Under the pieces are notes generated by a model. That model made no database searches. It saw only the letters and a program-made list of their open reading frames with translations, and was not told where the DNA came from. This document shows positions 3,375-30,149 of a stretch of DNA of 64,000 bases, one piece after another (within the stretch, counting starts at the first letter, position 1; each line of letters begins with the position of its first letter). A program made the position numbers and the translations under genes. This DNA is from a virus: IMG/VR virus record IMGVR_UViG_3300023175_000005, positions 62,001 through 126,000 of that record. One strand, given 5' to 3'.

Positions 3375-6300
3375 TTAATTTTTTTCAATTAATTTTTGCA
3401 CCATTGCTTTAAGTTCAGCAATCTCAGCAGCCTGCGCTTCAATTTTGTCATCTGCTTCTTTTACTGCTTCGATTAGCAACGGAACCATACGCTCATACTT
3501 AACTGTTAGATAGTCTTCGCCTGACTTACTGTTACCATCTTCGTCTAAGTCGAACGGTGCAGCAACAACTGCTTCTGGTAGTACCTTTTGTACTTCTTGA
3601 GCACTAACACCTACTTGTGTATTGTCATTGTTGTATCCGTACTTCTTAGCAGTTTCGTTTTCAACATATAGATAACCATTAAGTGCTTTTACTTTATCAA
3701 GGGCGCCTTCTAGTTTACCTGTGAATGTTTTCAAACGTTCGTCTGAGTAGTATGCTGTAACTTCGCTTGTTGCAAGCAATTGACCGTTTACATACCAACC
3801 TTCGTTTTGTGCTCTTGCTTTCCATGCACCATTATAGTAGATGTATGTGTAAGAGTTTTGTTGTCCGTATAAAGACCACTCGTTATTAGTATCGTTATAG
3901 ATACCGTAAGCGCCCGCACCATTTGACATAAACACCCAGTCATCTCTAATAGACCACCCTGCGTATGATCCGCTTGTACCGTATACACCTTCTGCTCTGA
4001 ATGTACCATAGTTCTGTCCATTAGCAGGAGCAATATAGTTAGAAGTGTTACCACCGATACCAATAACATTTTTAACCATCAAGTTACCGGCAGTAGTAAG
4101 TGACATAGCACCATCAGATGCTGCATCGCTTGTATCTCTCCACAGGAAGCCTCTATCATTATCAGCGTTCATAGTAAATGTCATTGCATAGTCGTTAAGC
4201 CAACCATAACTTTGAGCACTTATCATACCAATTGTATATGAACTCGAACTCCAAACCCTGAGCTTATCGTATGAGTTGCCACCATAACCGTCAATTAAGC
4301 CAATGTTATAGCGTGTACTAGGACTAAATCTATCTGGGAATGTACCACTTGTAATGTTACCAGCATTGATACTAGTAATACTTGCACCATTACCACTAAA
4401 CGTACCACTAATAGTACCACCGTTGGTAATATTGTTTGAGTTCATATTCAATGTTGATCTCAATGTAGGAACAGCATTTCCAGTACCTAAATACAAGGTA
4501 TTTGCACTATGATCTCTCCAAATATAGTTTGTTGTGCCGTCTGTAGTATCTTGAACAATAAAGTCTGCATCGTTAACTTTAATCGTAGTAGCACCGTTGT
4601 CTACTCCTGCACCGTTAACAAAATCACCAATGTCTTGTCCGTCAACTGTATCAGCATCTAGACCTGAACCTGCACCATCATTGCCAGCATGCCATACTTT
4701 ATTACCGTTAACATAGAAGTCACCCGGTCCATCGATAGCAACCATTAGGTTTGGTTCTGTTGTTTGGAACTTAAATGACGCACCGTATCCACTACCAACT
4801 GAAGCACCGTCTGAATGTTCAAAGTTTAGTCTACCATACTGTGTATTTGATGCGTGGTCAGTAAAGTCGATTCTTGCGCCGCCTGCGTTAGTTGTGTTTC
4901 TAATAACAAGTCTTTGTGCGCCAGAGCCTACCAAACTAATAACGCCACTTGCTGTATCATTTGCATCTGAACGTAAGAACTGTGTACTATCAATACCGTC
5001 TAGCGTATCTGCACTAACATTTGTAAGCCCACTACCGTTACCAGTAAATGTACTTGTACCAATGTTAATGTTACCAAAGCCGCTTGTGATTTGACCTGCA
5101 TTTAGAGCACCTGTACCTGTGATACTTGTATAACTACCACTAATTCTTGCGTTAGGTACTGTACCGCTTGACAAGTTACTTGCATTTAGTGATGTTAATC
5201 CGCTACCATTACCTGTAATTGTTCCACCAACATGTAGGTTTTTAGCAATACCAACACCACCACTTACTTTTACAGCACCAGTTGTTGTGCTACTTGCTTG
5301 AGTTGTGTTTGAGAACGTCTTAATACCACTCATTGACTGGTTGCCACCTAGTCTTGCTCCAGCAACAGTACCACTTGACAAGTTACTTGCATTTAGTGTT
5401 GTCAATCCACTACCGTTACCAGTAAATGTACTTGTACCAATATTAATGTTACCAAACCCGGAACTAATTGCACCTGCGTTTAGCGTACCTACAGCATCAA
5501 TGTCAGTTTCGTGTTGTGTTACACTTGAACTTGAAATTCTACCATCTGGTACAGTTCCGCTTGTAAGTTGGCTTGCATTAAGTGCAGTAAGTGAAGAACC
5601 AACACCTGCAAAGCCTGTAGTACCACTGAATGATAGTGTTGTAGTGTTAACAGTTAGTCCTACACCTGGTATTCTTACATTTGCATGTGAAGCATTACCT
5701 AATGTAATTTCATTGTTTGTTGTGTTTGCTGTTGGTGCAGCATCTTTACCAATAACAATGTTATTACTACCTGTTGTAATTGTTGCACCTGCGCCGTAGC
5801 CAATAATTACGTTATTACTTGCATTTGCAATTTCTAGTGCTTTATATCCAATAGCAACGTTTGCATTAGCAGTAATTGAGTTTTGCATACTTTCAGCACC
5901 GATTGCTGTATTACCGCCTGTTGCTGCATCAATTTGTGAAAGGGTATATGCACCCATTGCTGTGTTATTTGCTGAAGCAGTAGCTAATGCAAGAGCATCT
6001 TTACCAACACCTGTGTTTTGATTACCTGTTAATACAGCACCAAATACACCATCTCCGACTCCAACTGAGTCAATACCAGTTGTTACAGCAGCACCGCCTC
6101 CTGCAAAGAAGTTGGTAGCACTACTGCCGCCACCTTCGCCAATTAAGTGTCCGTTTACTGTGATATCACTTGTAAATGTTTTGCCTGATTGTGAAGTAGG
6201 AAGCACTGCATCTGGGATAGTACCACTTAGTAACTGAGACGCATTTAAGTTTGTTAGTCCGCTACCATCACCGTATATAATACCACCAACTCTAAGTTTT

Positions 6301-16500: not shown

Positions 16501-19500
16501 ACTGTCTCTACGACATTTTGCTTCGTCGTAACTCAAACCATTTAAACTTGTGTTAATATAATCAATTACACTTTGTACAAGATCTGATTGAGAACTGTCG
16601 CCGCTTGCTAAAATTAAATCTCTTGAGTTTGTTAAGTTAGAAGCAACCCAAGTTAAATCGGGCTCATAAAGAGATGGAAGATTTTCTGTGCTTTCTTCTT
16701 GTAACACATCAACAATATAAGTTACTAAGCCTGCCAATTCATCCATTTCTGCTGAACTTGCTGGATTACCTGTAAGCGTTTGTCCTGCTCTGTTTTCTAT
16801 AATTATATCGTCAGCAATATCAATTAATTGTTGGTATGCAGCAATTGTTTCGTCTTTTTGTGATGCAGGAATTTGCGATGCAGTTCCTTCAAAATACGCT
16901 AATGCTGCTGTTCTTGTTGCAAAGTTTGTACCGTATTGTATGTCATGCGATACAGCATCAATGATATATCCTGTGTCTCTTTCGCACTTTGCTTGATCGT
17001 AAACTAAAGTTGGGAAACTTAAATTGATCCAAGCAATTAATTCACTAATAATGAACGTTCTGTTACTTTGTAATAGTGTTCTAGCATATGCTTTATTAAC
17101 ATCTGATCCAGGATCAGTAAATGTTAATGGATCAGCACTAAGGACACCATTTTGTAAAATATCAATAATTTCATCAAACAAGTCATTACATGCTGTTACG
17201 CTTGCACTATCTGCCGCAACAAGTGTTGCTACTTCTGTTCTTAGATATGTGATTGCTGCAACAGTTTCTGTTAATTGATCACTGATTACTAAAGAAGCAT
17301 TTGCATTATAATATGCCAGTCCTGCTTGTACACTGTTATAATTTGTACCTAGAACTAAGTCATAAGTTACAGCATCTAGAATTAAAGCAGTATCTCTTGC
17401 ACATTTTGCACTGTCATAAACAAAATAGTTGTTAGCAATATACTTAATTGTATCTTCAACTAGGAAATCTCTGTTTGCTTGTAATAATCTATTTGCATCA
17501 ATTAATTCTTGGCTTGCAGGTGTTGGTGCAGGGAATGTTCTACCTTCACTAGGCAATGCAGTTTGTGCGCCAAAGCCGCCATCTGGAACAGTAGTTAAGG
17601 TTTGATCTGCAAATTCGATTAAGTTTAGAATAATATCAAATCTGTCATTTACTCTTTCAACTGCAACACTGCTACCTGCTGCGCCTGCTGCTGCTAGTGT
17701 TTTTAAATATCTAATTGAAATAATAGTTGCAGGTTTTTGTGCAACATCAAAATATGTTGCTGTTGCTCTTTGATATGCTTGTCCTGCTTGAATACTATTG
17801 TGATTTGTGCCTAGTTTAACATCTCTTACAACAGCATCTAAAATAAGTTCTACATCTCTTTTACACTTTGTTCTATCATATGTAAAGTTTGGATATGTTG
17901 TAAGCAAATAACTTGTAATATTAGTTGCAAAATTATCTTGTGCTGCAAACAATGAACTTCTTGCTGCTTGCACATCTGCTGCTGCCCAAATAACACTTGG
18001 ATATTGTACTTCAGGTAAGTTTGTCAATGCACCTGTGTTAATTACTTCAATAATAATATCAATATAATCGTCTGCACGTTCTGCTTCAACACCTGTTGCA
18101 TTTGCTGCTGATGTATCTTGTACTAACAAGTTACCAGTAGATCTAAATACTGGATCTCCTTGCAAAATCTGTGTTGTAATTTCTTTTAATCTGCCATATG
18201 CTGCAATAGTAGCAGTAGTTTCGTCTGCTCCTAATTGACTTGCTGTTCCTACAAAATACGCTTGTGCTACGTCCCTAGTTGCATAGTTACCGCCATATAA
18301 GATATCGTAAACTAATCCGTCAACAATGTGACCTACATCTTTATAACATGCATCTTGATCATAATCTAATGAAGGATAGTTTTCGTCTACCCATTTAACT
18401 ATTTCTTCTTGAATAAAGTCTTTGTTGTTAACAAGTTGATCTCTTGCATTTTCTCTTGCTGCAATAACACCCGTCGGTGAAGGATATGTGTAATCGTCTG
18501 CACTTGTGCTATCACCTCTCGAAAGGATTTCGATAATCTCATCCATTGCATTGTTTACTCTGCTTGTAGCAGTTGAACTTGCTACAACATTAGGTAAAGC
18601 AAGCATTAGTGTTTTTAGATATTGGTATGCTGCAATAGTTTGTACTTTTTGTTTTTGGTATACAACACTTGCATTTGCACGAGCATATGCTCTACCTGCT
18701 GTAACACTTGAATAGTTTGTTCCTAAAGCAGTATCATATGCAACCGCAGTTGTAATTTGCCTAACATCTCTTTCGCACTTATCTTGATCATATGAAAGAT
18801 CTGTAAATTGGTCTGAAATATAATTTACAACTTCGTCAATAATAAAGTCTTTATTTTGAACAATATTATCTTTTGCAGCAATTACACCGCTGTCAATATT
18901 TGTAAGTTCGTTATAAACTACATCCGGTACCGCAGTACTATCGCCTTGTGTAATTGTATTTGTAATAATTGCAAAGTTTTCAATTATGTTATATCTATAG
19001 TCTATGTTAGCAGGATCTGTATCAGGAACACATTTTAGCATTTCGTCTCTTGCTGCTTCAATACCATATATTGTAGGTGCTAACTGTTGGTTAAGAACTT
19101 TTTGTGATGTTGCACGAAGATAACTTCTGCCTGCATTAATACTTTGATAGTTTGTGCCAAGTGCAGAATCTCCTGATACTGCATCAATAATTCTTTGTAT
19201 ATCTCTTCTACAAATTGTTTCATCATAAATGAATGGTCGTGTTGTAATTTCAGATGAAGTTACATAATATCTTGTTTCATCGCCTTCAAACGTTATAATA
19301 GAACCTGTCTGTGGAATATCACGTAAACTATCTACTTCAACTATTCTGTTTGTAATTAAGTTTACAGTACCTGTTGCAGGAACACTAAACCCACCGCCTG
19401 TAAATGTAATGTTAGGTATAAAATCATATCCACTACCCTGATTACTAATACTTACAGCAACAACTTTACCTGTTGCAGGATCAATACTTGCATTGCCTGT

Positions 19501-20571
19501 TGCTTGTACACCGCCTGGCGTAGTAGGAGGATCAATAGTTACAGAAGGTGCATTTGTATAGCCAGCACCTTGGTTATTAATAGTCACACTACCAACAACA
19601 GAATAATAGTCTTGTGTAGGTCTAGCAGTTGTAAATACTTTCTCAAATAATCCATCAGCAATAATTGCATAAGTACCAAAGTCACTAACAGAGTTCGAGA
19701 TCGAAAGATACCCGCCTGCGGTTGCTTGGAAACCAACTCTTGTAAAAACTGAGAAGCAACTAACAATCTGTGTATATCCTTCATTAAGTAGCCAAAAGCC
19801 AATACCACCTTGTGCAACTTGTGTAAACGCATCAGCAACAAAGGATCGTACAAGACTTCTCTGATCGTAGGCGGCACCGTCAACTTTCATACCGTTGCCG
19901 CCACCGTTGTCGTTTACACGTTTTTCAAGCGGTACATTAGGATCATCTATAATTGGTCTAGCACCTGCCGGTACACCTGGAATTTGTTCTGTTTGAAAAG
20001 GAACAAATTCAGTACCGTCGTTTAACCACGGACCATTCATGTTTGTACAGTTTTGTACATATGGTGAAACAGTTACAAGTGCACCTGGTCTAATTTCTGC
20101 ACACCAACCTGGATCTGCTAATCCTCTAAATGTAAGTTGAAACAAGTAACATGCACAATCCATATAAAAAATTGTTTCAGTATTATTGAGCGGCCAAATT
20201 TGACAGTTACGTAAACTATCACCTCTAACAGTCATACGTTCTTTTAACGTAATCGGATTATCTTCGTAATAGTCTCCTGGTGCAACTTTAATAGTTGATC
20301 CTGCTGGTGCTGCTTCAACAGCAGATTTAACTGTTCGTTTTGCACGATCAGGTCCTTGACCTAATCCATCATTTTCGTCACTACCTTGTAATGACACATA
20401 ATAGATTAGTGTATCAGTAGGACCACTTGAACTACCTGTAACTTTTAGATCACCGTTAATTTCAACAGTGCCGCTACCCGGATTAAGTTCAATTGTACCG
20501 TCACCTTTAATTATAAGTTGACGGTCTCCTATTTTCCTGTCGTGTAATATCTGCTGCTTTACATACTTCAT
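13585..20571 (-). CDS. Giant virion protein with beta-helix head and eight KCxRD repeats
   Basis: 2328 residues. The N terminus (GTVEINGDLKVTG) matches that of the 441-residue protein nearby, suggesting a common attachment segment. Residues about 55-330 resemble a pectate-lyase-type beta-helix (YYVSLQGSDENDG, APGDYYEDNPITL) like the neighbouring giant. Two GxGY units (NNQGAGYTNAPSVTI, SNQGSGYDF) follow. Residues about 445-1680 hold eight helical repeats of roughly 140-160 residues, each starting YDxxKCxRDxxxIIDAV and continuing GTNY or GGN and AxAYY. The C-terminal 640 residues return to beta-rich fibre sequence with Thr/Asn-rich turns. The stop is 1 bp from nothing but the leader of the next transcription unit; upstream the start follows the 110-residue gene directly. 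A structural, probably fibre or whisker role is inferred from composition and neighbours. Confidence 0.8.
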   Translation of the reverse strand: MKYVKQQILHDRKIGDRQLIIKGDGTIELNPGSGTVEINGDLKVTGSSSGPTDTLIYYVSLQGSDENDGLGQGPDRAKRTVKSAVEAAPAGSTIKVAPGDYYEDNPITLKERMTVRGDSLRNCQIWPLNNTETIFYMDCACYLFQLTFRGLADPGWCAEIRPGALVTVSPYVQNCTNMNGPWLNDGTEFVPFQTEQIPGVPAGARPIIDDPNVPLEKRVNDNGGGNGMKVDGAAYDQRSLVRSFVADAFTQVAQGGIGFWLLNEGYTQIVSCFSVFTRVGFQATAGGYLSISNSVSDFGTYAIIADGLFEKVFTTARPTQDYYSVVGSVTINNQGAGYTNAPSVTIDPPTTPGGVQATGNASIDPATGKVVAVSISNQGSGYDFIPNITFTGGGFSVPATGTVNLITNRIVEVDSLRDIPQTGSIITFEGDETRYYVTSSEITTRPFIYDETICRRDIQRIIDAVSGDSALGTNYQSINAGRSYLRATSQKVLNQQLAPTIYGIEAARDEMLKCVPDTDPANIDYRYNIIENFAIITNTITQGDSTAVPDVVYNELTNIDSGVIAAKDNIVQNKDFIIDEVVNYISDQFTDLSYDQDKCERDVRQITTAVAYDTALGTNYSSVTAGRAYARANASVVYQKQKVQTIAAYQYLKTLMLALPNVVASSTATSRVNNAMDEIIEILSRGDSTSADDYTYPSPTGVIAARENARDQLVNNKDFIQEEIVKWVDENYPSLDYDQDACYKDVGHIVDGLVYDILYGGNYATRDVAQAYFVGTASQLGADETTATIAAYGRLKEITTQILQGDPVFRSTGNLLVQDTSAANATGVEAERADDYIDIIIEVINTGALTNLPEVQYPSVIWAAADVQAARSSLFAAQDNFATNITSYLLTTYPNFTYDRTKCKRDVELILDAVVRDVKLGTNHNSIQAGQAYQRATATYFDVAQKPATIISIRYLKTLAAAGAAGSSVAVERVNDRFDIILNLIEFADQTLTTVPDGGFGAQTALPSEGRTFPAPTPASQELIDANRLLQANRDFLVEDTIKYIANNYFVYDSAKCARDTALILDAVTYDLVLGTNYNSVQAGLAYYNANASLVISDQLTETVAAITYLRTEVATLVAADSASVTACNDLFDEIIDILQNGVLSADPLTFTDPGSDVNKAYARTLLQSNRTFIISELIAWINLSFPTLVYDQAKCERDTGYIIDAVSHDIQYGTNFATRTAALAYFEGTASQIPASQKDETIAAYQQLIDIADDIIIENRAGQTLTGNPASSAEMDELAGLVTYIVDVLQEESTENLPSLYEPDLTWVASNLTNSRDLILASGDSSQSDLVQSVIDYINTSLNGLSYDEAKCRRDSEYIIDSVSHDMLYGGNRSILVSTRAYFDDGVSTIVGQEFQTADAIEHLRDISVSIIEGVPIAVQPGNGETQDLSGTFGTSTESEVANDLYNILILAITDSLGLGTTPQNTDPDYSWISSSLVEAADNVLTNSTTYQQQVIDYITQNIIGFRYNVEKCKRDTNYIIDAAVYDMMYGGNKQTRRAAEAYYSGTILSAASEGNADQQDITEFTYKHLARVLSDVAQNIDITPSGTPTLLQETDGTNGSAAAGLILKTLVSKIAEVIETTVIAETGNTVYLPIEQDHNYAGLASMADYADRQLIMFKAQDIEDEAIRLLNLEYGGVAELTLFPGVLSVTKGTLGNMQRVSTVSTSGHAFEYVGAGITYNALPFFGGSPIAENEIVESNTGKVFAGGTVDQIGNFRVGNFFAVNALTGAITLNANQIDLTGIASIGPFQRFGIPVGVELKEVSDNTNLIASTGTADINTVPTQNAVVQFLSNNYLNKITGGTVEGDVTFELDIAVDGGDLTTTASEFNLVNDNANTVNFAGGAANINIGDLIGTTTINNSLVVKDDIKLGENPTTNVTTDSLTVNLLNTTVTTVNAMGEATTIVIGADTGTLTINNDFVIIDSDKSIQVPVGDTSARPSVPVIGQVRFNTDLQFYEGYNGVNWSSLVGTIDADQDTFIRPETGPGTDEDTLEFYADGSKRMYLNASELDVDESVDITINSDTQSRSTESGAVVVTGGMGIGGNLYVGGTIGGDIQIGHLGTSTLTIRGETVYAPDTIRLITDAPDSAADDIVYPLTLAHHTTTGAITSGAGTGMKFELETFLNNFETAAQVDVVSTDVTGGGEDFDMIISTMHNGLLTEKFRISELNSTFTTNLVVDGILDAAGFTGSIFADDSTEIIDAVNNKITVVNADIGTLILTSDLEVQYGGTGASTFTENGILYGNTADPVQVTDAAGTADASNSFQILTVTSDADATPVWTDTIDGGTF
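15530..19240 (-). repeat. Eight coding repeats of about 420-485 bp (YDxxKCxRD unit)
   Basis: The Cys-Arg-Asp block recurs near 19210, 18785, 18345, 17870, 17405, 16990, 16520 and 16035. Copies are diverged but keep a Cys, an RD pair, an aliphatic IIDAV helix and a GTNY/GGN turn. A ninth, isolated copy lies in the adjacent giant gene near 11600-11960, so the module has moved between genes. Confidence 0.8.
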
Positions 20572-20904
20572 TTATACTTCCAAATAACTTATTGTCGCAT
20601 TCAGTTTATCCGAATCCGGACTAATCATTACTATTCTGTCACCTTCTTCTAAAATCAATCTCTCAACATTAAAAGAAAATGTTTCCTGAGCAGGCATAGA
20701 TATATTGTTAAGGACTTTATTATCGTCTGATTTAACTCCGCCACTTCCTTGTATTACATGCATATCAAAACTACTGTCGTTTACAGATGTTATCGAAGTA
20801 GAATAGTTGCTAACTAACACGGTCGTGATGGCATATTTCTTTCCTGCTGGAACATCTAGCAATGTTGTATCAGTTTCGAGTATTTTTACACTGTTAATCG
20901 CCAT
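20572..20904 (-). CDS. Small virion-type beta protein, 110 residues
   Basis: Not recognised by name. The sequence alternates short hydrophobic strands with polar turns (KKYAITTVLVSNYST, ERLILEEGDRIVMI) and ends TISYLEV, consistent with a compact beta-sandwich such as a decoration, head-fibre or fibre-attachment protein. It has no Cys cluster, signal peptide or membrane segment. Its stop codon directly abuts the 2328-residue giant gene, and its start lies 9 bp after the 441-residue gene, so all three probably share a transcript. Function is inferred from context only. Confidence 0.7.
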   Translation of the reverse strand: MAINSVKILETDTTLLDVPAGKKYAITTVLVSNYSTSITSVNDSSFDMHVIQGSGGVKSDDNKVLNNISMPAQETFSFNVERLILEEGDRIVMISPDSDKLNATISYLEV

Positions 20905-20913
20905 CTTTCTTCC

Positions 20914-22239
20914 TTAAAAAATAATACTATAAAGCAGAGCTTTATTCCTGCTTATTAATTCGTCTTGTGTACCTAATTCGTTTATAAAATATAAACCTGT
21001 GCCGCCATCAGCTTCGTCTTTTGCATATATCTTTGTACCATCAGTAGGTGGTGTATCTTCTGTATCAGTTAGTGCAGGATCTATTAATTTAGGAAACAAC
21101 ATAGGTGTTAGTACTTGTACATCACCTAAATTATTACCTGATAATTTCAAATCACTATCAAGTCCAGATGCTGAAATGGTATTTTCATCTATGGTAACCA
21201 ATGCAATTTCTGCAGATGTTTCATAAAAGTATGCAATTTCACTACCGTCTACAGTAATTCTAACATTACTTAGAGATGTAACACCATCTAGTGTACTAAA
21301 TGCTTCAACTTTTGTTGTTCCATCTGGTTCAACAGCATTAATTCTATATTGCCAATTATATTTGTGATAATCTCTAACATAATCTTTTAAGAACTGCAAA
21401 TTAGGAATAGCATCTGGTTCATACCCTGGCCAATCTGCTCCTGACAATCTGTTAGAATTTGTAGGAACATTTTTTATTTCACTGCCGTCGTATTCAGCAA
21501 GGCGTTTTTCATAATCAAGTGTGCCTGATACAGAAACAACGCCGCCTAAATTGGATCCTGGTAACAAGTTAAGATCATTACCATCTTCAGTTTTAATGCT
21601 GCTTGTATAGATACCTAAGTATCCTGAACCTTCTAAACCAAACTTAAATGCACCTGCATTTGCTTCTAACACACCGTTAGTGTATGACAATAAGTTTTCA
21701 TCGTAAAACATAACAGCATTTGGCAATGTGCCTCTGTCCATTATGATACCAGAAATTTCATCGCCACCAATACCAGTTGCAATTACTCTTTGTATATTAC
21801 CATCACTTATGTATGCAATAAACCCTGATGTATCTACAGGAGTAGTTAATGCAAAGTCTGCAAATAATTCAACTGTAGTAGGATCAACAACATTTACATA
21901 GTAAGTGTTATTGTTTAATTCTACCATTCCTAAAACATTAGTAATAATTACTTCGCTACCATCAGTAAAACTGTGAGCATCTGATAATTCTACTTGTGCT
22001 GGGTTTGCTTGTGTTATACCAACAATGTCGTATAGTGTATTAGATTGATTGTTTAGTGTTAGTGTTTTATCACTTACAATTAATTCAGACGAAGTAATCG
22101 AAGTTTGAGAGCCGTTGACATCTAAATCACCATTGATAACAACAGTGCCGGAACCTACATTAATTTCAATAGTTCCGCCATCGTTAATTGTTAACTTATA
22201 ATCGTCGACTCCATACTGTTCGATTCTAGACGCTGTCAT
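20914..22239 (-). CDS. Fibre-associated virion protein, 441 residues
   Basis: The first 70 residues (GTIEINVGSGTVVINGDLDV, then SELIVSDKTLTL) are the phage-fibre pattern G-x-L-x-V-x-G followed by a TLxLN strand, and closely match the start of the 2328-residue giant. The middle contains ITQANPAQVELSDAHSF and a FTDGSEVIITN stretch, like the small beta modules in the giant S74 fibre. Residues about 265-310 are rich in aromatic residues (YVRDYHKYNWQYRI). GGAG precedes the ATG at a good distance. A structural protein at the fibre base or a short fibre is likely; I cannot assign a T4 equivalent. Confidence 0.7.
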   Translation of the reverse strand: MTASRIEQYGVDDYKLTINDGGTIEINVGSGTVVINGDLDVNGSQTSITSSELIVSDKTLTLNNQSNTLYDIVGITQANPAQVELSDAHSFTDGSEVIITNVLGMVELNNNTYYVNVVDPTTVELFADFALTTPVDTSGFIAYISDGNIQRVIATGIGGDEISGIIMDRGTLPNAVMFYDENLLSYTNGVLEANAGAFKFGLEGSGYLGIYTSSIKTEDGNDLNLLPGSNLGGVVSVSGTLDYEKRLAEYDGSEIKNVPTNSNRLSGADWPGYEPDAIPNLQFLKDYVRDYHKYNWQYRINAVEPDGTTKVEAFSTLDGVTSLSNVRITVDGSEIAYFYETSAEIALVTIDENTISASGLDSDLKLSGNNLGDVQVLTPMLFPKLIDPALTDTEDTPPTDGTKIYAKDEADGGTGLYFINELGTQDELISRNKALLYSIIF

Positions 22240-22255
22240 TTATATCTCCAACTTA

Positions 22256-22702
22256 TTACTGTCTTGGTAGAGATACACTTAATACTGCGTTTGGTACACC
22301 TGAATCTTCTCTTGCATCTGGATGATTACCAATTTCGTAGATTACATTGTCTGCTTTGTCACCATCCGGCGGTGTTGCAGTACCTTTTGCAGTGTTTTCA
22401 ATTTGCACTGTTCTGTTACGAAGTTGTGTTACTTGATAAACTGTTGAATCAGAACCTGTTGCATCAATTCTAAATGTACCTTCTGGCATACTTCCGTTGC
22501 CTTCTGTTGTTAATTTTAGAATTTCACCTGCTGTTGGATCTGCATTATCACTATCTAAGCGTACCCAGAATTGATTAGCACCTTTTACTTTGTAAATGTG
22601 TGCTGCTGTGGTTGCTTCTGAACCACCTGTAAAATAGTGACGGCTTACAGCAATTCTACCTGAACCGTATCCTATTTTTGATTTATTAATTGGACGTCCC
22701 AT
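22256..22702 (-). CDS. Virion-type protein, 148 residues, unassigned
   Basis: The protein begins with the basic segment MGRPINKSKIGYGSG, then alternates polar beta strands (ANQFWVRLDSDNADP, TEGNGSMPEGTFRI, LRNRTVQIENTAKG) and ends SVSLPRQ. It looks like a small beta-rich structural protein. It is the first gene after a late promoter with an 80-base leader, and it heads the unit that continues into the 441-residue, 110-residue and giant virion genes. AAGGAG lies 7 bases before the ATG. I know similar-looking short proteins in marine T4-like structural clusters but cannot give a precise role. Confidence 0.7.
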   Translation of the reverse strand: MGRPINKSKIGYGSGRIAVSRHYFTGGSEATTAAHIYKVKGANQFWVRLDSDNADPTAGEILKLTTEGNGSMPEGTFRIDATGSDSTVYQVTQLRNRTVQIENTAKGTATPPDGDKADNVIYEIGNHPDAREDSGVPNAVLSVSLPRQ

Positions 22703-22785
22703 TTGTTTCTCCTTTTTGACGTTCTAAGTCTACGCGGTTGGTCTTCCGCATAAGTCCTCATCTAGAGGCTCTCCTCTTGACACAA

Positions 22786-22794
22786 GTATTTATC
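22786..22794 (-). promoter_or_regulatory. Late promoter box with structured leader
   Basis: The minus strand reads GATAAATAC. The following leader contains a hairpin AGAGG-AGAG-CCTCT and a second GCGG/CCGC hairpin before AAGGAG and the ATG at 22702. The box lies just beyond the terminator of the upstream RNA gene, so the virion unit starts here as a fresh transcript. Confidence 0.6.
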
Positions 22795-22823
22795 CAAAAG
22801 ATTAAAATGGGTTATTATGTCAT

Positions 22824-22857
22824 AAAAAAAGGCCTGCAATTATGTTGCAGACCTTTT
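22824..22857 (-). terminator. Rho-independent terminator of the RNA gene
   Basis: The minus strand gives GGTCTGCAA, a 5-base loop, TTGCAGGCC, then seven T residues. One U-G pair forms only on the minus strand, where the T run also follows the stem. It ends the transcript from the 23.1 kb promoter and would also stop read-through from the capsid genes. Confidence 0.8.
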
Positions 22858-23078
22858 CTATAATATTGATAGGTTGGACTACTGATTACCAACAACCGCA
22901 CTATGCCCCATCAGGCTCAAAACAGCACGGAACCTCACAATAGAATGGTTAATCCTACTTTTCCTGCAATGCTTTGTCTCCAAAGTCTTACAGCGCCACC
23001 ACAGCGTGTGAGTCAAGTTAATGCCTGGGTAAGCATCGTTTCCTTGCACTATCTAACTTGGACCGTCGTCTTCGTTAT
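22824..23078 (-). ncRNA. Predicted stand-alone structured RNA, about 255 nt
   Basis: This 400-bp intergenic region has no credible gene but is visibly richer in G and C than its surroundings. On the minus strand it has a sigma70 promoter at one end and a terminator at the other. Helices between them: CAAGTTA/TAACTTG (23060-23054 with 23020-23014) enclosing ATGC/GCAT; CTGTAA/TTGCAG enclosing CTTTG-GAGA-CAAAG with a GNRA loop (22993-22964); AACC/GGTT (22950-22931); CCGTGCT/AGTGCGG (22930-22896); GTTGG/CCAAC (22893-22873). Three pairs are G-U on the minus strand and would be C-A mismatches on the plus strand, so the minus strand is the RNA. I do not recognise the family: it does not look like tmRNA, RNase P RNA or a tRNA. 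Stems are seen; function is unknown. Confidence 0.7.
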
Positions 23079-23084
23079 GTTTAT

Positions 23085-23112
23085 AATATAGCATCTAAAA
23101 AAAGTTTGTCAA
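23085..23112 (-). promoter_or_regulatory. Near-consensus sigma70 promoter for the RNA gene
   Basis: The minus strand reads TTGACA (23112-23107), 16-base spacer, TATATT (23090-23085). The -35 hexamer overlaps the stop codon of the cold-shock-like gene. Transcription would start near 23078. TATAAACATA (23085-23076) overlaps and is a weaker late-box candidate, so early and late use are both possible. Confidence 0.7.
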
Positions 23113-23321
23113 CGATAATCTTGAACTTTTTTTTGAATTTTTTCAATTTTTGTTGCAATTTTTCTGTCTTTGACATCATCTGCAAAATATTGTACTCTGT
23201 CACCAATTTTTAGATCATGTAAACGTGGATCAAACACAATATCTTTACGTGTGGCTTTCCATCTATCTGGTCTAATAAATCCATGCATTTTTAATTTCTT
23301 ATATACTGTACCTGTTTCCAT
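23109..23321 (-). CDS. Cold-shock-domain-like small protein
   Basis: 70 residues. The layout follows a cold-shock beta-barrel: an opening METGTVYKKLKMHGFIRP, where HGFI matches the RNP1 region, then KDIVFDP at the RNP2 position, then LKIGDRVQYFADDVKDRK and IATKIEKI, matching the usual final G-xx-V-x-F strand and A-x-x-I strand. The tail is strongly basic. Known cold-shock proteins are about 65-75 residues and bind single-stranded RNA or DNA. The aromatic RNP residues are partly replaced, so nucleic-acid binding is inferred. It has its own late box and lies between the major capsid gene and the predicted RNA gene, a notable pairing. Confidence 0.55.
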   Translation of the reverse strand: METGTVYKKLKMHGFIRPDRWKATRKDIVFDPRLHDLKIGDRVQYFADDVKDRKIATKIEKIQKKVQDYR

Positions 23322-23336
23322 TAGTATCTCCTTACA

Positions 23337-23344
23337 GTATTTAC
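23337..23344 (-). promoter_or_regulatory. Late promoter box for the cold-shock-like gene
   Basis: The minus strand reads GTAAATAC immediately after the T run of the gp23 terminator, so termination and re-initiation are separated by no spare bases. AAGGAG and the ATG at 23321 follow within 20 bases, giving a very short leader. Confidence 0.5.
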
Positions 23345-23370
23345 AAAAAAATAGGCCCCGTAGGGCCTAT
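23345..23370 (-). terminator. Strong terminator after the major capsid gene
   Basis: The minus strand gives ATAGGCCC, loop TACG, GGGCCTAT, then a run of T. The 8-bp perfect stem is closed by C(UACG)G, an exceptionally stable tetraloop, and lies about 25 bases after the gp23 stop. Confidence 0.9.
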
Positions 23371-23393
23371 CTTAAAATTATATAATCTAAAAC

Positions 23394-24572
23394 TTACGCG
23401 AAGCTTAGGTTTGCTGTTGTTACACCAACTAGACCTAGGTAATCCGCTGCATTGCCTAAAGACGATGCTGCGTTTGATAGTTCTACATAACCGTAACGTG
23501 TCATGAATGACACTGTTGGTTCGAATGTTGATGGATCTAGTACAACACCACTGCTCATTAATGGAATGTATGGGCAGTAGAACGCTGCTGCGTCTGATTC
23601 TGATGTACCTTTGTAGCCAACTAGAACATTGTCACTACCTGCATATGTGTTTACATATACTTTCATACTGTTGTTTAGTGTACCAACCATTTTTGTGTTA
23701 GTTGGTGCTTCAAATGTACCTTCTGTTGTACGAGCAAATGCAGATGTTGTTGCACTTTGTAGTAGTGTTAGTACTGTTGGTGATACAACTGCCCAGTTAC
23801 CTGCGCCTCTGCGTGTACGCTGTGCAATCAAGTTTGCAACTCTGTTGATTTGAACTGCTAGTGCAGCATGTTCGTCACCAACAAATGTTGCTGTACCTGA
23901 TACAGCAGCTTGGTCGTATGTTTCAACCGCTGAACCTGCAAGAGTTGTTAGGCTGCGGATGATTTCCTGATCGATCTCAGCAGTAATCTCTTGAGCAAGT
24001 GCTGCCATGATTTCTGCTTCTACGTCGATGCCGTGCTGTGACTGAGCGTCTTGTGCTGACTCAAATGTCCAACGTGCGCTTAGTTTACGTGACTTTGCTT
24101 CGACTGTTTGCTTTAAGATCTGAATGCTTAGTCTGTTACCAGCAGTACCTTCTAAAGCGCCTGTTGCAGCCGCTGTATCTGAAGATGCTGTGTTACCTGA
24201 ATAACCTTCTGCAATCTTAAATGGTGATAGTGCTTCTTCACCTGCCACAGTGTTTCCACCTGCGGAACCTGTGAATGCGTCACTATAACGTACACGTAAT
24301 GTGTGAATTTGACCGACTGGACCGGTCATTGGCTGAACGCCTACCAATTCGTTAGCAATAACGGTTGGCATAACACGTCTGATCACAGGAAGGATCACAC
24401 GGTTTAGTGTTGCGATGTTACCAGCAGCAGTTGCGCCTGAAGTTGCACTCTCTGACAAATACTTGCGTGTATTTTCAAGTGTTGCCGCCATTACGGCTTT
24501 CTTGTTACCATTTAGGCCTTCAAGTAGTGCACCTTTTGTCTCCTGCCAGCGACTTTCTAGTAGTTCTGACAT
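23394..24572 (-). CDS. 23: Major capsid protein gp23
   Basis: 392 residues, the hexameric shell subunit of T4-like heads with an HK97-type fold. Diagnostic stretches are LNRVILPVIRRVMPTVIAN, VGVQPMTGPVGQIHTLRVRY and, near the C terminus, FMTRYGYVELSNAASSLGNA. The N-terminal MSELLESRWQETKGALLEG is the propeptide. A cleavage site of the gp21 type (LSE, residues 39-41) would remove 41 residues, shorter than the 65 removed in T4 (inference). It is the last head gene of the leftward series 20-21-22-23 and is followed by a very strong terminator. GGAG stands at a good distance before the ATG. Confidence 0.97.
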   Translation of the reverse strand: MSELLESRWQETKGALLEGLNGNKKAVMAATLENTRKYLSESATSGATAAGNIATLNRVILPVIRRVMPTVIANELVGVQPMTGPVGQIHTLRVRYSDAFTGSAGGNTVAGEEALSPFKIAEGYSGNTASSDTAAATGALEGTAGNRLSIQILKQTVEAKSRKLSARWTFESAQDAQSQHGIDVEAEIMAALAQEITAEIDQEIIRSLTTLAGSAVETYDQAAVSGTATFVGDEHAALAVQINRVANLIAQRTRRGAGNWAVVSPTVLTLLQSATTSAFARTTEGTFEAPTNTKMVGTLNNSMKVYVNTYAGSDNVLVGYKGTSESDAAAFYCPYIPLMSSGVVLDPSTFEPTVSFMTRYGYVELSNAASSLGNAADYLGLVGVTTANLSFA

Positions 24573-24582
24573 TGTCTTCTCC

Positions 24583-25671
24583 TTAATTTAAACCAGCAAG
24601 TCTTTTCATGTCCACAACGTTTGTGTCAATCTGCTTGCTGTCTGAACTAATTTCTCTATTGCCTGTTACTTCTGTTGCCTCTGTAAGTGGTGCCTTCTGC
24701 TTTGCTGGACTTTTACCGTCAATAACTGATGGTAGGTACTTGTCAAACGACTCACGTAGTTTTGTAGTCTGAACTGTTTCCAGTAAATCCGTCATAATGT
24801 CTTTTTGGTCTTTGCTCAATGGTGAAACAAGTTCACTCATGATTTTAGCACGTTCTTGTGCTTCAACAAGACGCTTAACTTCTGCATCTTTGCTTTCTGC
24901 AATTTCCTTTGCTTTCGTTACGAAAGTTTTTGCTTCTGCAATTTGTTTATTTTTTGCGTCAACAATTTTTAAGAGTTTTGCAGTTTCTGATTTTTCATTT
25001 AGATGTGAGTTCATGTACTCAGATGTAAATGCTTCAAAAATCTTACGTCCAAAATCATTTTTGCGAGCCGCTTCAATATCTTCTTTTAATTGAGATATTT
25101 CTGCTTTAAGACCGGTAGATACAACATTTTCAATTGCTGTTGCACTTCTTTCGATAAAGTTCTTACGTACTTTTTCGAAGTGAGCCTTAGCTTCACGTAC
25201 TAAACGTACTTTTGTTTCAGCCAGGTCCTTTTTATCTTCTTGGAACTCTGCAATTTCTGATGCAAGTTGCTCTACTACGAAATCTTCTAACACTGAAAAC
25301 TTAGTTGCCATTGTTTTTTGATCTTCGTGTAGTTCTGAAATTTCATTTGCTAGTGTCTTAGTTACAAACTGAGACATTAGATCCGCATTTTCCTTCATTG
25401 CTACAGCATACTTTGCTTTTTGTTCTGCAAGTTGCTTACGATCTTCGTGGAATTCTGCCATTTCTTCTGAAAGTTTTTCAGATACCATAGCGTCAATTGC
25501 TTCGATCATAACACCTTTATCGTGCTCATATTTCTTAGCAAACTCCTCACGTAGTTCTGCTGTAACAGCAAGTTTATTTTCTTGAACTTTTGCGTCAAAT
25601 GCTTCTTGAATTTCAGATGCCATTTGCTCTGTAATTGCATCGCTCTCTAAAAGGTCTTTGATAGCTTCCAT
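24583..25671 (-). CDS. 22: Prohead core scaffolding protein gp22
   Basis: 362 residues, almost entirely charged coiled coil with EFHEDRK, ELHEDQK and EFQEDKK repeating about every 45-55 residues. This is the expected make-up of the T4 scaffold that fills the prohead and is degraded by gp21 before DNA packaging. The acidic N terminus (MEAIKDLLESDAITE) and the conserved C-terminal SPLSKDQKDIMTDLLETVQ and DMKRLAGLN are typical of marine gp22. It lies between the protease gp21 (12-bp gap) and gp23 (10-bp gap), exactly the T4 order. The EDRK-type repeats suggest internal duplication of a helical segment. Confidence 0.95.
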   Translation of the reverse strand: MEAIKDLLESDAITEQMASEIQEAFDAKVQENKLAVTAELREEFAKKYEHDKGVMIEAIDAMVSEKLSEEMAEFHEDRKQLAEQKAKYAVAMKENADLMSQFVTKTLANEISELHEDQKTMATKFSVLEDFVVEQLASEIAEFQEDKKDLAETKVRLVREAKAHFEKVRKNFIERSATAIENVVSTGLKAEISQLKEDIEAARKNDFGRKIFEAFTSEYMNSHLNEKSETAKLLKIVDAKNKQIAEAKTFVTKAKEIAESKDAEVKRLVEAQERAKIMSELVSPLSKDQKDIMTDLLETVQTTKLRESFDKYLPSVIDGKSPAKQKAPLTEATEVTGNREISSDSKQIDTNVVDMKRLAGLN

Positions 25672-25683
25672 GATTTTCTCCTT

Positions 25684-26307
25684 TTATTGGAGCCTGTCTA
25701 TTATTTTAAATAGACTCTCTGCAATATATTTTTGTGCCTTTTTATCGCCTTGAACTTCCTTAGAAGTTAGTATTGCCTTGTATCCACCATTCATATTCAT
25801 TAGGTGTTCATAAATTGGTGTAGGATAAGCACCTGGTGCGCTCGGTTGAGCAACAACATCTACAGTGATTATCTCAAATTCTGATACTTCGCCGGATCCA
25901 TCTTCTTTTACGTTTCCAGATCCACGTGACGAAACCCCAAGTTTAACGCCGCTTTCTAGCATTGTTTTAACAAGGGATCCCATCGGTGTTGGTAAAATTT
26001 TTAACTTGCCGTAACCGTTTGGGCCATCCATCCACATATCTGTGATCATATGACTTACACGATCTAAGTTAATGTTTAGTCCTTCAGGATGATCAACTTC
26101 GCCACACACTGAGTATCCGCCGGCTATCTGATCATTAAGAGTTTGGACAGCCCTGCTAATCTCTTGTACAGGATAGACACGCTGATTGGCGTTTCTAACA
26201 CCGCCTTGTATGCAAATACCTTTCATGTAAAGGTCTTTGCCTTCGTTAGCAGACTCAACGACCATTCTGGCCTGGTCAAAACTCATATGTTCACGTAGTA
26301 AATTCAT
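25684..26307 (-). CDS. 21: Prohead core protease gp21
   Basis: 207 residues, the serine protease that matures the prohead by cutting core proteins and gp23 after (I/L)-x-E. CGEVDHPEG carries the catalytic His (His73) and LGVSSRGSG the Ser (Ser126 or 127); VSEFEIITVDVVAQPSAPGA is the conserved C-terminal block. The N-terminal MSFDQARMVVESANEGKDLYM is typical. Its length is close to T4 gp21 (212). It stands between the acidic core protein and gp22, as in T4. Self-cleavage is expected from the family. Confidence 0.95.
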   Translation of the reverse strand: MNLLREHMSFDQARMVVESANEGKDLYMKGICIQGGVRNANQRVYPVQEISRAVQTLNDQIAGGYSVCGEVDHPEGLNINLDRVSHMITDMWMDGPNGYGKLKILPTPMGSLVKTMLESGVKLGVSSRGSGNVKEDGSGEVSEFEIITVDVVAQPSAPGAYPTPIYEHLMNMNGGYKAILTSKEVQGDKKAQKYIAESLFKIIDRLQ

Positions 26308-26331
26308 CCGTTCGTCCTATTATACTGCTGC

Positions 26332-27300
26332 TTAAGAGCCCATCATCGACTTTTTATTGTCAGCAGTCTCTGGCTTGCCCTTTTTCTCAGCGCCATGGCC
26401 AGGTTGTGACTTCATTGATTTTGAAGCCTTACCGCCTGGAACATTTACGTTCCCTGCGTTATCTTCTTTAGGAGCACCGGCACCTGTGCCTTCGCTTTTG
26501 CTTTCACCGCCTGCTGCGATGTTTGCTGCTGTGCCGCCCATGTTGTTTGGACCTGCTACAGTTGACTTAGTGTTTGCACCGTTGTCACCCATTGTTGCAG
26601 ATACTTTTTCTACATATTCACGCATTTGTTCGCCTGCGCTTTTTGGAGCAGTTGATTCGTCAGTTTCTTCGTCTGCTGCTTCATCTACTTCTTCGTCTGA
26701 TGCTTCGTCGACTTCTTCGTCACTTGCTTCATCTACTTCTTCGTCTGATGCTTCAAATGCATAGCCTTCTTCTTCTGGCTCTTCATCGTCGCCTGCTTCA
26801 TCACCCATCATTTTTTCAAATTCTGCTTTTAGGTCTTCTAAAGCATCTTCTAGATCCATAACTTTATCTTCTAGATCATCGTGATCCATGTCGCCTTCTT
26901 CGTCGCCTGCGTCCATGTCCATGTCGTCGCCTTCTTCGTCATCTGCACCAGCGTCTTTCATTAGGTCCATTACTGGATCATCTGCTTCTGCTTCAATGTC
27001 GTCTAGGCCAAACATTTCGTCAATGTCATCTTCTGATTCATCAACTTCTTCTTCTGATTCATCAACTTCTTCATCAGTTGCTTCGTCTAAATCATCTTCT
27101 GATTCGTCTACTTCTTCATCAGTTGCTTCATCTACTTCTTCGTCTGTAGTTTCTTCAACTTCTTCTTCTGTTTCAATAATTGATTGATAAATCTCACGTG
27201 ATTTTTCTACAACAATCTCGTGGAATAATTCTTCAGCACCTTCACGGTCTTCATTAACTAGTTTTTCGAGCATTTCCTCGAACTTATTAGTGTCAGTCAT
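26332..27300 (-). CDS. Acidic prohead core protein, gp67-like, with repeat expansion
   Basis: 322 residues. The N-terminal 45 residues (FEEMLEKLVNEDREGAEELF, then VVEKSREIYQSII) resemble the start of T4 gp67, an acidic core protein of 80 residues encoded between genes 20 and 21. The next 180 residues are very acidic low complexity built from EVDEATDE, EVDESEDD and EVDEASDE units. The last 90 are Gly/Ala/Lys-rich, with SMKSQPGHGAEKKGKPETA. Gene position matches gp67/gp68. A core role, with negatively charged peptides left in the capsid after gp21 cleavage, is inferred. A late-like box lies upstream. The expansion to four times the T4 length is unusual. Confidence 0.7.
   Translation of the reverse strand: MTDTNKFEEMLEKLVNEDREGAEELFHEIVVEKSREIYQSIIETEEEVEETTDEEVDEATDEEVDESEDDLDEATDEEVDESEEEVDESEDDIDEMFGLDDIEAEADDPVMDLMKDAGADDEEGDDMDMDAGDEEGDMDHDDLEDKVMDLEDALEDLKAEFEKMMGDEAGDDEEPEEEGYAFEASDEEVDEASDEEVDEASDEEVDEAADEETDESTAPKSAGEQMREYVEKVSATMGDNGANTKSTVAGPNNMGGTAANIAAGGESKSEGTGAGAPKEDNAGNVNVPGGKASKSMKSQPGHGAEKKGKPETADNKKSMMGS
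26640..27180 (-). repeat. Acidic low-complexity coding repeats (EVDE units)
   Basis: Short repeats of 21-24 bp encode EVDEA(S/T)DE and EVDESEDD in two clusters, about 26660-26755 and 27010-27165. The DNA copies are close enough for copy number to change by slippage. They also create Ser-rich false open frames on the plus strand. Confidence 0.75.
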
Positions 27301-27333
27301 GTTACTCTCCTTTACTGATTACAAGGCTGTCAG

Positions 27334-27342
27334 TATTATTTA
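27334..27342 (-). promoter_or_regulatory. Possible late promoter box for the gp67-like gene
   Basis: The minus strand reads TAAATAATA, containing the TAAATA core, 34 bases before the ATG at 27300, with AAGGAG between. The match is weaker than the other late boxes. Confidence 0.4.
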
Positions 27343-27366
27343 ACAAGAATGGGAAAATATACGTAG

Positions 27367-27407
27367 AAATAGGCTCAAAATGAACTATTTTGAGAAGAAT
27401 CCTATTT
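27367..27407 (-). other. Imperfect hairpin at the end of the sialyltransferase-like gene
   Basis: AAATAGG/CCTATTT and CTCAAAA/TTTTGAG arms form a two-part stem with a one-sided six-base loop, overlapping the stop codon at 27406. No clean T run follows on the minus strand, so it may be an attenuator or mRNA-stabilising hairpin rather than a full terminator. Confidence 0.4.
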
Positions 27408-28146
27408 AAAGGCTGAATTTTTTTCTAAAATCTTCAACAGTTATGTGTGTTAAGTTATCTAATCCTAATAAGTTGTCTGGTATAAAACTTGATTTGTCTT
27501 CAATCACTCTTATATATCTCACAGTGGAGTTCTTTTTTATACATGTATTTGTCTGTCTAGACCAATTTCCGTAATAAGTTGCTCTATCTTCTTTTTGTTT
27601 ATAATTTGGAGTGCCAGCAAAAATATTATTAACTTTTGTTCCGTTATCAAGTCCTTTATAATCAAAACCTAAAATATAAATTTCTTCATGGTTATGTTGT
27701 GTTGCAAGCATAAGTGCAGTAGGTCCACTACTCCATCCTAAATTTGGACTCATTAAATTAAGAGATTCTAGTCCTCTTGTGTATCTATTAGGATTTGTCC
27801 AAACCATATTATCATAGTTGTATCTTGTATCGGTAATCTCTCTTACCATCTTTGTATCAACTGCAATTAAATGATCAGGTCTAAAATCTCTGTACACTGC
27901 GTTACATGCATAAACTAAACCATATTGTTTTAATAATTCTAAAGGAATATCTTTTCTACTAGTTCCGTTACCTAATACAAATGCAATATTAGTTTTAGTC
28001 GAAGGTGTACCGTCGTCAAATTTAATTGACTTTTCTAAATGTTTTCTTAATTTATCTTTTTGTTTTTGGTAGCGTTCTAAACGTTTTCTTGCTTTTCTTT
28101 CTAGTTTAGTTTCGCCTTCGATACGATGTTTTTCTTTATCGGGCAA
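27406..28146 (-). CDS. Rossmann-like protein resembling GT42/DUF115 glycan enzymes
   Basis: 246 residues. A basic N-terminal helix (KLERKARKRLERYQKQKDKL) precedes a nucleotide-binding-like start, IAFVLGNGTSRKDI, then LVYACNAVYRDFRPDHLIAV. The GNGxSxxxI and YxxCNAxYxxF combination recalls CstII-type sialyltransferases (GT42) and DUF115 motility-associated proteins. Later LGWSSGPTALMLAT and EEIYILGFDYKG fit the second half of such a fold. The start codon is TTG with AGGAG 9 bases upstream. It sits between gp20 and the core genes, an odd place for a glycan enzyme. The family link is by motif only; a capsid role that has lost catalysis is possible. Confidence 0.5.
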   Translation of the reverse strand: MPDKEKHRIEGETKLERKARKRLERYQKQKDKLRKHLEKSIKFDDGTPSTKTNIAFVLGNGTSRKDIPLELLKQYGLVYACNAVYRDFRPDHLIAVDTKMVREITDTRYNYDNMVWTNPNRYTRGLESLNLMSPNLGWSSGPTALMLATQHNHEEIYILGFDYKGLDNGTKVNNIFAGTPNYKQKEDRATYYGNWSRQTNTCIKKNSTVRYIRVIEDKSSFIPDNLLGLDNLTHITVEDFRKKFSL

Positions 28147-28158
28147 GGCTGGTTACTC

Positions 28159-28410
28159 CTACACTGCGGCTTCTCCAGCGTTTGCTGCTATACCATACAT
28201 TGCCCTCACATATACAAGATCTTTTTGACTTTCTTGTCTATGCATATCATCTGCTTTACGTGCTTTATTAATGTCTTTAAATGTCAATCTTGTTTTACGA
28301 GTGTCATCCATTGCTACAACAGAAGTTGTATCATCGTCACTATTGTAACGCTGATCCTCTACAGGTTCCATTGTTTGTTTATCAAAATAGTAAAGCTCTC
28401 TTAGTATCAT
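28159..28410 (-). CDS. Conserved small protein following gp20
   Basis: 83 residues, starting MILRELYYFDKQTMEPVED and continuing RKTRLTFKDINKARKADD to end near LVYVRAMYGIAAN. I recall proteins of this pattern immediately after the portal gene in cyanophage-type T4-like genomes, without a known function. It is charged, probably helical, and has no membrane segment. It begins 8 bp after gp20 and is 12 bp from the next gene, so it is part of the head transcript. A prohead core or portal-associated role is inferred from position. Confidence 0.75.
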   Translation of the reverse strand: MILRELYYFDKQTMEPVEDQRYNSDDDTTSVVAMDDTRKTRLTFKDINKARKADDMHRQESQKDLVYVRAMYGIAANAGEAAV

Positions 28411-28418
28411 GTAATTAT

Positions 28419-30149
28419 TTATGCTGTTGCTTGTGGAGATGGCTCAGCAGGGTTTTCTTCACCGCCAATTACACTTCCATCATCGCCCCCAATAGCATCA
28501 TCTCCTGTTAGTTCTTCGCCTTGTGCGCCTTCAATATCTCCTGCAATATCAGAACCAGTAATGCCTGCGCCTCTCATTTGTGCAGAAGCATCTTGTTCCT
28601 GTGCTGCAAAGAATTCATCATTTTCTTCCATCCATAAACGTTCATTTTCTTTAACTTCTTCTTCTGATAGTCCAAGGAAACGTTTCAAGGCAAAACGATT
28701 TGATATAAACGGAATTTGTTGCATCTGTGCAAATGTTGAAATTCTATTGTTATCAAGTTCTGCTTGTCTATAACTTGCAAAGTTTTGTGGAGGTTGTAAA
28801 ACAAGATCAAACATGCTTACATCTATGTTTACACCCTTTTTGCTTAGATAAAGTTTAAATTCTTGATTAAATTTGTCTGTAAGTAATTTTTGTAAACGTT
28901 CACAGTAATTGTTAAAACGTAGTTCTTGAATGTATGCTGTACCTACTCGTCCATCATTGTACTGTGAATTGCTGTCATCAGCGCCTGTGGGTAGATAAGA
29001 AGAAGGTATGCGTAAACCACGAACTAACTTGTTAGTAAAATACCTAAGATCATCAATCTCTCCTAAGTTAGTGCCACCTGGTAGCGTTTCAACTTTACTG
29101 CCGCGGCCTTCAGCAGTTTGTGGAAAGAAGTAGTCTTCGTTGATTGACAGTGGATTATAACTTGAGTCTATAACATTTTGGCCACCACCTGTCTTGGATG
29201 GGATACGTCTTTGATGTATTTCCGTTTTAACACGCTCCACAAACTGCATAGCAAGGTGTGAAGGCATGTTGCCCACATCAACGTAGAATACTCTGCGCTC
29301 TGGCGCACGTTGGACACGATAGATAATAATCGCATCTTCAAGCAGTTCTTTCTGCTTGTATACTTTAAAAATTGTTTCTAATAGACTGTTACCAAACGGA
29401 TAGTTGTTATCTAGCCCTTCGCTCATTGATAGATGAACAACATGTTCTGCATCGATTGCAGTTTCATTTGCATCTTGACTCCAACGGCTTGTGCTTTGAT
29501 CAGGAGTTCTACCTGTCATATATTTGTTGTCAAGTGTTTGGTATCCAGGATTGTTACCGCCTGGACCGTAAACTTGATTTGTATTGATTTTTGTTGCACT
29601 TAATCCTTCAAAGGCAATGTTAAGATCTTTTACAATATATTGCTCAGGACGTTTGCCTTCCGATTCGTTAACGATAATTTTTGTTACATTAGCAGGATCT
29701 ACATGATACCATTTTTGTGTTTCAGGATCTCTAATAAAAAATTGGTCGCCAAACTTAAATGCATTTCTTATAACACGGAACATGCGTTTTTCAAATTCTT
29801 GTATCTTGCACCATTGTTTTAGATACTGACCAAGAATTTGTACTTCGCTTTTTGTTGCACCTTTGTTAAACTCAATATTAAAAGGTGTGTTGTTTTGTTT
29901 GTTCTTTTGTGTGCAAAATTCTGCTAGGATGTCTAGTGCAGCATTAACTTCAGAGTCATTATCCATTGTGTTATATTGACCATAACGCTCAACACGATTT
30001 GGTGATCCGACATAAACATCAGGAAGGTGAGATGAATAGTTTGCTGCTGCTGGTCCCATTCCTTGACCTTGTGTAAAACTAAATGGACTGAAGTTACCGG
30101 TAGGATTGGCACTCGTTGCTACTGGTGTAAAATATTTTTTCCAACTCAT
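28419..30149 (-). CDS. 20: Portal vertex protein gp20
   Basis: 576 residues, a little longer than T4 gp20 (524). It forms the dodecameric portal through which DNA enters the head. Clear gp20 blocks are RVERYGQYNTMDNDSEVNAA, RVIRNAFKFGDQFFIRDPET, YRVQRAPERRVFYVDVGNMP and LRIPSSYLPTGADDS. The C-terminal tail is acidic and Gly-rich (ELTGDDAIGGDDGS). The ATG overlaps the tape-measure stop (ATGA), a sign of coupled translation. Confidence 0.96.
   Translation of the reverse strand: MSWKKYFTPVATSANPTGNFSPFSFTQGQGMGPAAANYSSHLPDVYVGSPNRVERYGQYNTMDNDSEVNAALDILAEFCTQKNKQNNTPFNIEFNKGATKSEVQILGQYLKQWCKIQEFEKRMFRVIRNAFKFGDQFFIRDPETQKWYHVDPANVTKIIVNESEGKRPEQYIVKDLNIAFEGLSATKINTNQVYGPGGNNPGYQTLDNKYMTGRTPDQSTSRWSQDANETAIDAEHVVHLSMSEGLDNNYPFGNSLLETIFKVYKQKELLEDAIIIYRVQRAPERRVFYVDVGNMPSHLAMQFVERVKTEIHQRRIPSKTGGGQNVIDSSYNPLSINEDYFFPQTAEGRGSKVETLPGGTNLGEIDDLRYFTNKLVRGLRIPSSYLPTGADDSNSQYNDGRVGTAYIQELRFNNYCERLQKLLTDKFNQEFKLYLSKKGVNIDVSMFDLVLQPPQNFASYRQAELDNNRISTFAQMQQIPFISNRFALKRFLGLSEEEVKENERLWMEENDEFFAAQEQDASAQMRGAGITGSDIAGDIEGAQGEELTGDDAIGGDDGSVIGGEENPAEPSPQATA

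Follow-up and report, generated by a model that had tools for sequence, protein, structure and literature searches.

The stretch of DNA analyzed here (the window, 64,000 nucleotides) is taken from a virus record of 256,558 bases, in which it spans 62001-126000; the source is a large, marine, T4-like phage. With the ORFs of the window called mechanically, the gene order around the RNA considered below is T4-like and lies entirely on the minus strand: gp21, gp22, gp23, a 70-aa ORF, the RNA, a 148-aa ORF, and large tail-type ORFs. The identity of gp23 comes from matches to annotated capsid proteins, and the names gp21 and gp22 are a reading of position and order. A highly acidic repeat protein with DEEVDEA/DEEVDES repeats (window 26332-27300, minus strand) adjoins gp21. 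The genome has no match to PF00124, taken as a sign of cyanophage origin through psbA-type genes; a tRNA/tmRNA search at the RNA locus found none, and blastn of the RNA region against cultured phages gave chance matches only. The features of the locus are as follows.

23085..23112, minus strand: sigma70-type extended -10 promoter, with TTGACA at 23112-23107, a 16-nt spacer, TATATT at 23090-23085, and TG before the -10 box
22824..23078, minus strand: predicted transcript of ~255 nt, presumably starting 6-7 nt downstream of the -10 box
22863..23076, minus strand: manA RNA body, covariance-model match to positions 1-192 of 192 of RF01745
23061..23070, minus strand: 5' hairpin GAC-GACG-GUC
23049..23053, minus strand: 5' strand of P1, GAUAG, closing the multi-branch loop with CUAUC at 22872-22868; pairs survive double changes
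22998..23002, minus strand: loop GUGGU of kissing contact 1, partner ACCAU at 22949-22945; covariation
22945..22949, minus strand: loop ACCAU of kissing contact 1, partner GUGGU; covariation
22911..22914, minus strand: loop CUGA of kissing contact 2, partner UCAG at 22885-22882 of the 3' hairpin; covariation
22873..22893, minus strand: 3'-terminal hairpin GUUGG...CCAAC, all five pairs formed in 60/60 sequences
22882..22885, minus strand: loop UCAG of the 3'-terminal hairpin, kissing contact 2, partner CUGA; covariation
22868..22872, minus strand: 3' strand of P1, CUAUC, with pair changes as for GAUAG
22824..22856, minus strand: intrinsic terminator, a 12-pair stem and then a T-run, seven T at 22830-22824
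22787..22794, minus strand: T4-type late promoter GATAAATA of the next late gene, kept in relatives
22700..22770, minus strand: leader of ORF 22702-22256 resembling RF02980 (freshwater-2), 46.5 bits against a gathering score of 49.9, outside the RNA gene

An initial annotation, made from the letters of the window, had described this interval as a stand-alone structured RNA gene with a TTGACA-N16-TATATT promoter of host type and a T7-tailed terminator, insulated from the late genes on both sides. The promoter is indeed found at that place, with 11 of 12 matches, as is the terminator with its 12-pair stem and seven T. The insulation holds as well: a hairpin and T-run lie 3' of gp23, and the late promoter GATAAATA precedes the next ORF. 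The RF02980 cut-off is exceeded in nine relatives, most of these matches likewise standing directly after a late promoter, and freshwater-2 looks like the leader of a late gene in these phages.

Fold and family of the RNA

The minus strand of 22824-23084 has a minimum free energy of -82.9, compared to -65.2 ± 4.9 for shuffled sequences (z -3.63), none of 200 being that low, whereas the plus strand of the same interval, with a z of -0.86, does not fold much better than its shuffles. This agrees with the minus-strand orientation assigned to the fold in the initial annotation. The helices and the GNRA loop that it had pointed out are also present, the latter as GAGA in CUUUG-GAGA-CAAAG.

Relatives were collected from viral contigs in two ways, with gp23 as the query and with an RNA-only pattern; together the searches gave ~160 loci with a profile match, mostly from metagenomes, and dereplication at 92% identity reduced these to 54. 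The covariation alignment contains 60 sequences, including four cyanophage members, and the compared part of the RNA is 202-224 nt long among the relatives. For 22 of the 25 consensus pairs, at least one sequence is changed on both sides with the pair kept, and replacement of a whole helix is seen, e.g., of CAAG/CUUG by CAUC/GAUG in one relative (L028).

Both kissing contacts covary. The observed value is attained by 5 of 1000 swaps for GUGGU with ACCAU and by none of 1000 for CUGA with UCAG (score 9.7 versus 7.25 ± 0.29), in a swap test that takes no account of relatedness and, for the second contact, on loop columns picked after a scan of column pairs. The second contact varies through about ten different sequence pairs, and three unrelated loop pairs showed no covariation in the same test. 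The initial annotation had held that the RNA gene would fall if relatives lacked conservation or covariation; both are present, in the 22 pairs and in the two contacts. A protein coded in the RNA strand was considered and rejected, because no reading frame is conserved among the relatives; the longest ATG frame in the window RNA has 10 aa.

At curated thresholds, Rfam gives no match in the window. A permissive search of the short stretch yields RF01745, the manA RNA, over model positions 1-192 of 192 with 50.7 bits and an E value of 4e-12. The gathering score of RF01745 is 55.2, which is exceeded by relatives in the same alignment (L221 with 55.4, L222 with 55.5, L044 with 56.4, and the Pelagibacter phage Mosig with 64.0 bits), and cultured cyanophages score 97-184 bits. 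Because the match spans the full model, the window's own score is below the threshold, and relatives lie above it, the window RNA is, judged by these scores, a divergent manA homologue and not a curated member. The order of the helices is the same as in RF01745, the 22 covarying pairs agree with the helices of its consensus, and the conserved segments GACG, GUGGUG, UAACCA, and GGUA...AGUNNUCC also occur in the window RNA. The P2 region differs, with UAGUGCAAGGAA/AACUUG in the window and GUGACUGAAUAAACUU in manA. The view that the RNA belongs to no known family was thus mistaken, while the stand-alone structured RNA gene with a host-type promoter is borne out by conservation, covariation, and the distribution of promoters described below.

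In its account of manA, the survey of Weinberg et al. (2010, PMC2864571) calls the RNA certainly cis-regulatory and probably a riboswitch, and its drawing has one "pseudoknot?" with weaker support. Rfam files RF01745 as cis-regulatory, a riboswitch candidate, and later mentions in the literature repeat this. In the literature searched we found neither a ligand of manA RNA nor its treatment as a stand-alone gene, although others may have said so. The label corresponds to a location in a 5' UTR, whereas the window RNA stands alone after gp23 with its own promoter and terminator, and a late promoter precedes the next gene.

Promoter, terminator, and genomic neighbors

With 11 of 12 matches, the promoter is the best among 39 sigma70-like sites in 17000-29000. 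Such a motif by itself proves nothing, since the 39 sites found equal the ~38.5 expected by chance; the promoter becomes significant because it is kept in relatives and matches the other early promoters of the phage. Of the 55 sequences made up by the 54 dereplicated relatives and the window, 50 retain the -35 TTGAC, 54 have a -10 box that matches at 5 or more of its 6 positions, and all have a spacer of 16 or 17. For the loci from the RNA-only search this conservation is no selection effect, because the search pattern excludes the promoter. By eye, TTGACA-N16/17-TATAAT or TATATT is also found just upstream of the RNA in the cultured phages P-SSM2, P-SSM4, S-SSM7, and Mosig.

A genome-wide search with the early-promoter pattern TTGACN{14,20}TGNTATNNTA returned 15 sites, compared to 1 for the reversed-pattern control. 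Fourteen of them lie in 1.9-27 kb and 197-228 kb, toward both genome ends, and the sole site between those regions, at 85.1 kb among late genes, precedes this RNA. From most of the others it is 26-39 nt to an ORF that has a ribosome site, and the genes behind them are presumably early, judging from the promoter class. The remark in the initial annotation that an early promoter here is out of step with its late neighbors gains strong support from this distribution and from the conservation of the promoter.

A terminator follows within 87 nt of the RNA end in 42 of 60 sequences but in only 31 of 1137 control windows (2.7%); about a third of the relatives have no detectable terminator. The terminator sequences vary freely among relatives. 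After the terminator, a T4-type late promoter is found in 33 of 41 relatives, against 3% of controls. A promoter and a terminator of its own, as expected for a noncoding RNA gene, are thus kept with this RNA among the relatives.

The neighbors differ widely among relatives, while the RNA and its promoter are constant, which argues against a cis role. In the cyanophage S-CREM1 the RNA has tRNA-Leu on one side and tRNA-Asn on the other, each at a distance of 0-1 nt. In S-SSM7 the RF01745 match ends at 151563 and tRNA-Gly begins at 151564, and in four contigs (L068, L094, L101, and L182) a tRNA-Gly lies 8 nt past the profile end. The next large gene is on the opposite strand, i.e., convergent, in L203 and L161. 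Elsewhere, the next gene resembles gp32, Hsp20, or DNA ligase, and in some relatives a gp32-like, purL, or Hsp20-like gene lies downstream on the same strand, where the RNA may have a leader role.

The S-CREM1 RNA (OP535465, PMC9964418) belongs to the same family, with 96.6-100.6 bits, and is filed as cis-regulatory by its authors; unlike the window RNA, it is inside a tRNA operon with no promoter of its own visible adjoining it. The manA-like RNA of Mosig (MT647606 108164-108371) is of the same TAGTGCAAGGAA clade as the window RNA and has TTGACA-N17-TATATT upstream, like the promoter type of the window. It is unannotated in the record, the next gene is annotated as rubrerythrin, and no terminator was found downstream. 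Two annotated hypothetical proteins, PSSM4_169.1 (NC_006884 164884-165057) and SSSM7_180 (NC_015287 151441-151572), overlap the manA RNA in the same orientation and are unlikely to be genes.

Several other elements were observed near the RNA. In L187 and L176, as read from the sequence, it is flanked by an IF-3-like and an Hsp20-like ORF; it would be unusual for a phage to encode an initiation factor. A tmRNA gene is found a few kilobases from the manA RNA in Mosig (L207 548-886), L140, and L108, and glutamine riboswitch aptamers (RF01739) are located between gp23 and the manA RNA in L013 (5234-5281) and L025 (5236-5282).

Of 55 gp23 loci with enough downstream sequence, the RNA follows gp23 in 25 and is absent in 30; it is therefore accessory to the phage. 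Five long records without the RNA after gp23, which can be fragments, have no RF01745 match anywhere, nor do the cultured phages whose gp23 records are closest, Vibrio phage 2.275.O and Sinorhizobium phage Phosso. Cellular genomes yielded no more than two matching stretches, both in one metagenome-assembled genome; since one of them (L205) carries gp22 and gp23, they are probably binned phage contigs. A packaging-RNA role, suggested by the capsid neighbors, was also considered but dismissed, since other phages do not have the RNA at this position and more than half of the gp23 loci are without it.

Alternative explanations and proposed role

According to the filed assignment, promoter, aptamer, and terminator would form a transcription-attenuation leader, a riboswitch, for the following late genes. 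RF01745 is held to be a probable riboswitch in the manA account of PMC2864571, an attenuator has the same order of promoter, fold, and terminator, and the next gene is close by in P-SSM2 and in the gp32-like settings. However, the complementarity of terminator arms to their own RNA does not exceed that to the RNAs of other members (13.5 versus 13.84 ± 0.31 with swapped arms), and there is thus no signal of an antiterminator as an expression platform. Between the terminator and the following gene stands a late promoter belonging to that gene (33/41); elsewhere the RNA fits tightly among tRNA genes or is followed by a convergent gene, its neighbors varying widely while RNA and promoter stay constant. 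We regard such a leader as very unlikely at this locus. For this clade, the cis-regulatory label of manA is contradicted by the arrangement read from the genomes.

Control of host or phage mRNAs by base pairing through conserved unpaired stretches would fit a terminated RNA of ~255 nt whose promoter is of the early type; the window's clade also has near-invariant stretches, such as UAGUGCAAGGAA, part of which resembles a Shine-Dalgarno sequence. However, the conserved positions are distributed throughout a compact fold that has two tertiary contacts, several conserved loops are taken up by these contacts, and cyanophage members do not retain the AAGGAA stretch, so that we consider a pairing small RNA unlikely. 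An accessory RNA of translation, matured with tRNAs and serving phage tRNA or ribosome use, is suggested by the adjoining tRNA genes in S-CREM1, S-SSM7, and the four contigs, by the tmRNA genes near the RNA in Mosig, L140, and L108, and by the IF-3-like gene beside it in L187 and L176. Most members of the window's clade, however, have no tRNA gene near, and phage tRNA clusters also hold unrelated genes, which makes this role improbable.

In this phage and in dozens of relatives, the RNA is most likely a transcript in its own right, synthesized early in infection. We consider it fairly probable that the locus is an independent gene for a divergent manA RNA, transcribed early by the host, with its own terminator, stable and trans-acting, and not a switch of the next gene. 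As the promoter class suggests, host RNA polymerase with a sigma70-type factor would transcribe the RNA early from its own promoter, and the intrinsic terminator would end it before the late genes, which use their own late promoter. The RNA is predicted to fold into a compact multi-branch structure pinned by the two covariation-supported loop-loop contacts. It is then most likely stable and acts in trans, through a shape that a host protein or ribonucleoprotein would recognize. None of the RNA features examined points to a particular partner; our best guess is a role in host takeover or counter-defence, because the RNA is accessory, early, and independent of context.

For manA RNA overall we would give a little less than an even chance to a wider proposal, namely, that instead of being a riboswitch it is a stand-alone early RNA, widespread among marine T4-like phages, that acts in trans on host machinery or defence and has two conserved kissing contacts. 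manA has been a riboswitch candidate since 2010, with no ligand found in the literature searched. If it is a free-standing RNA that the phage makes early, its role should be sought among protein or ribosome partners instead of metabolites, and the database label should change. The clade offers cultured hosts (for P-SSM2, P-SSM4, S-SSM7, S-CREM1, and Mosig) and allows a comparison of near relatives that carry the RNA with others that lack it.

GOLLD is another phage structured RNA of unknown role, large, conserved, and sometimes located beside tRNAs; its size and structure differ from those of the window RNA, and the Rfam search of the window gave no GOLLD match. At G000 3774-3840 (L232), an early-type promoter stands ahead of a 55-aa ORF, and a terminator-like hairpin with a T-run comes within ~10-20 nt of the promoter on its downstream side; this element is perhaps another short early RNA or an attenuator.
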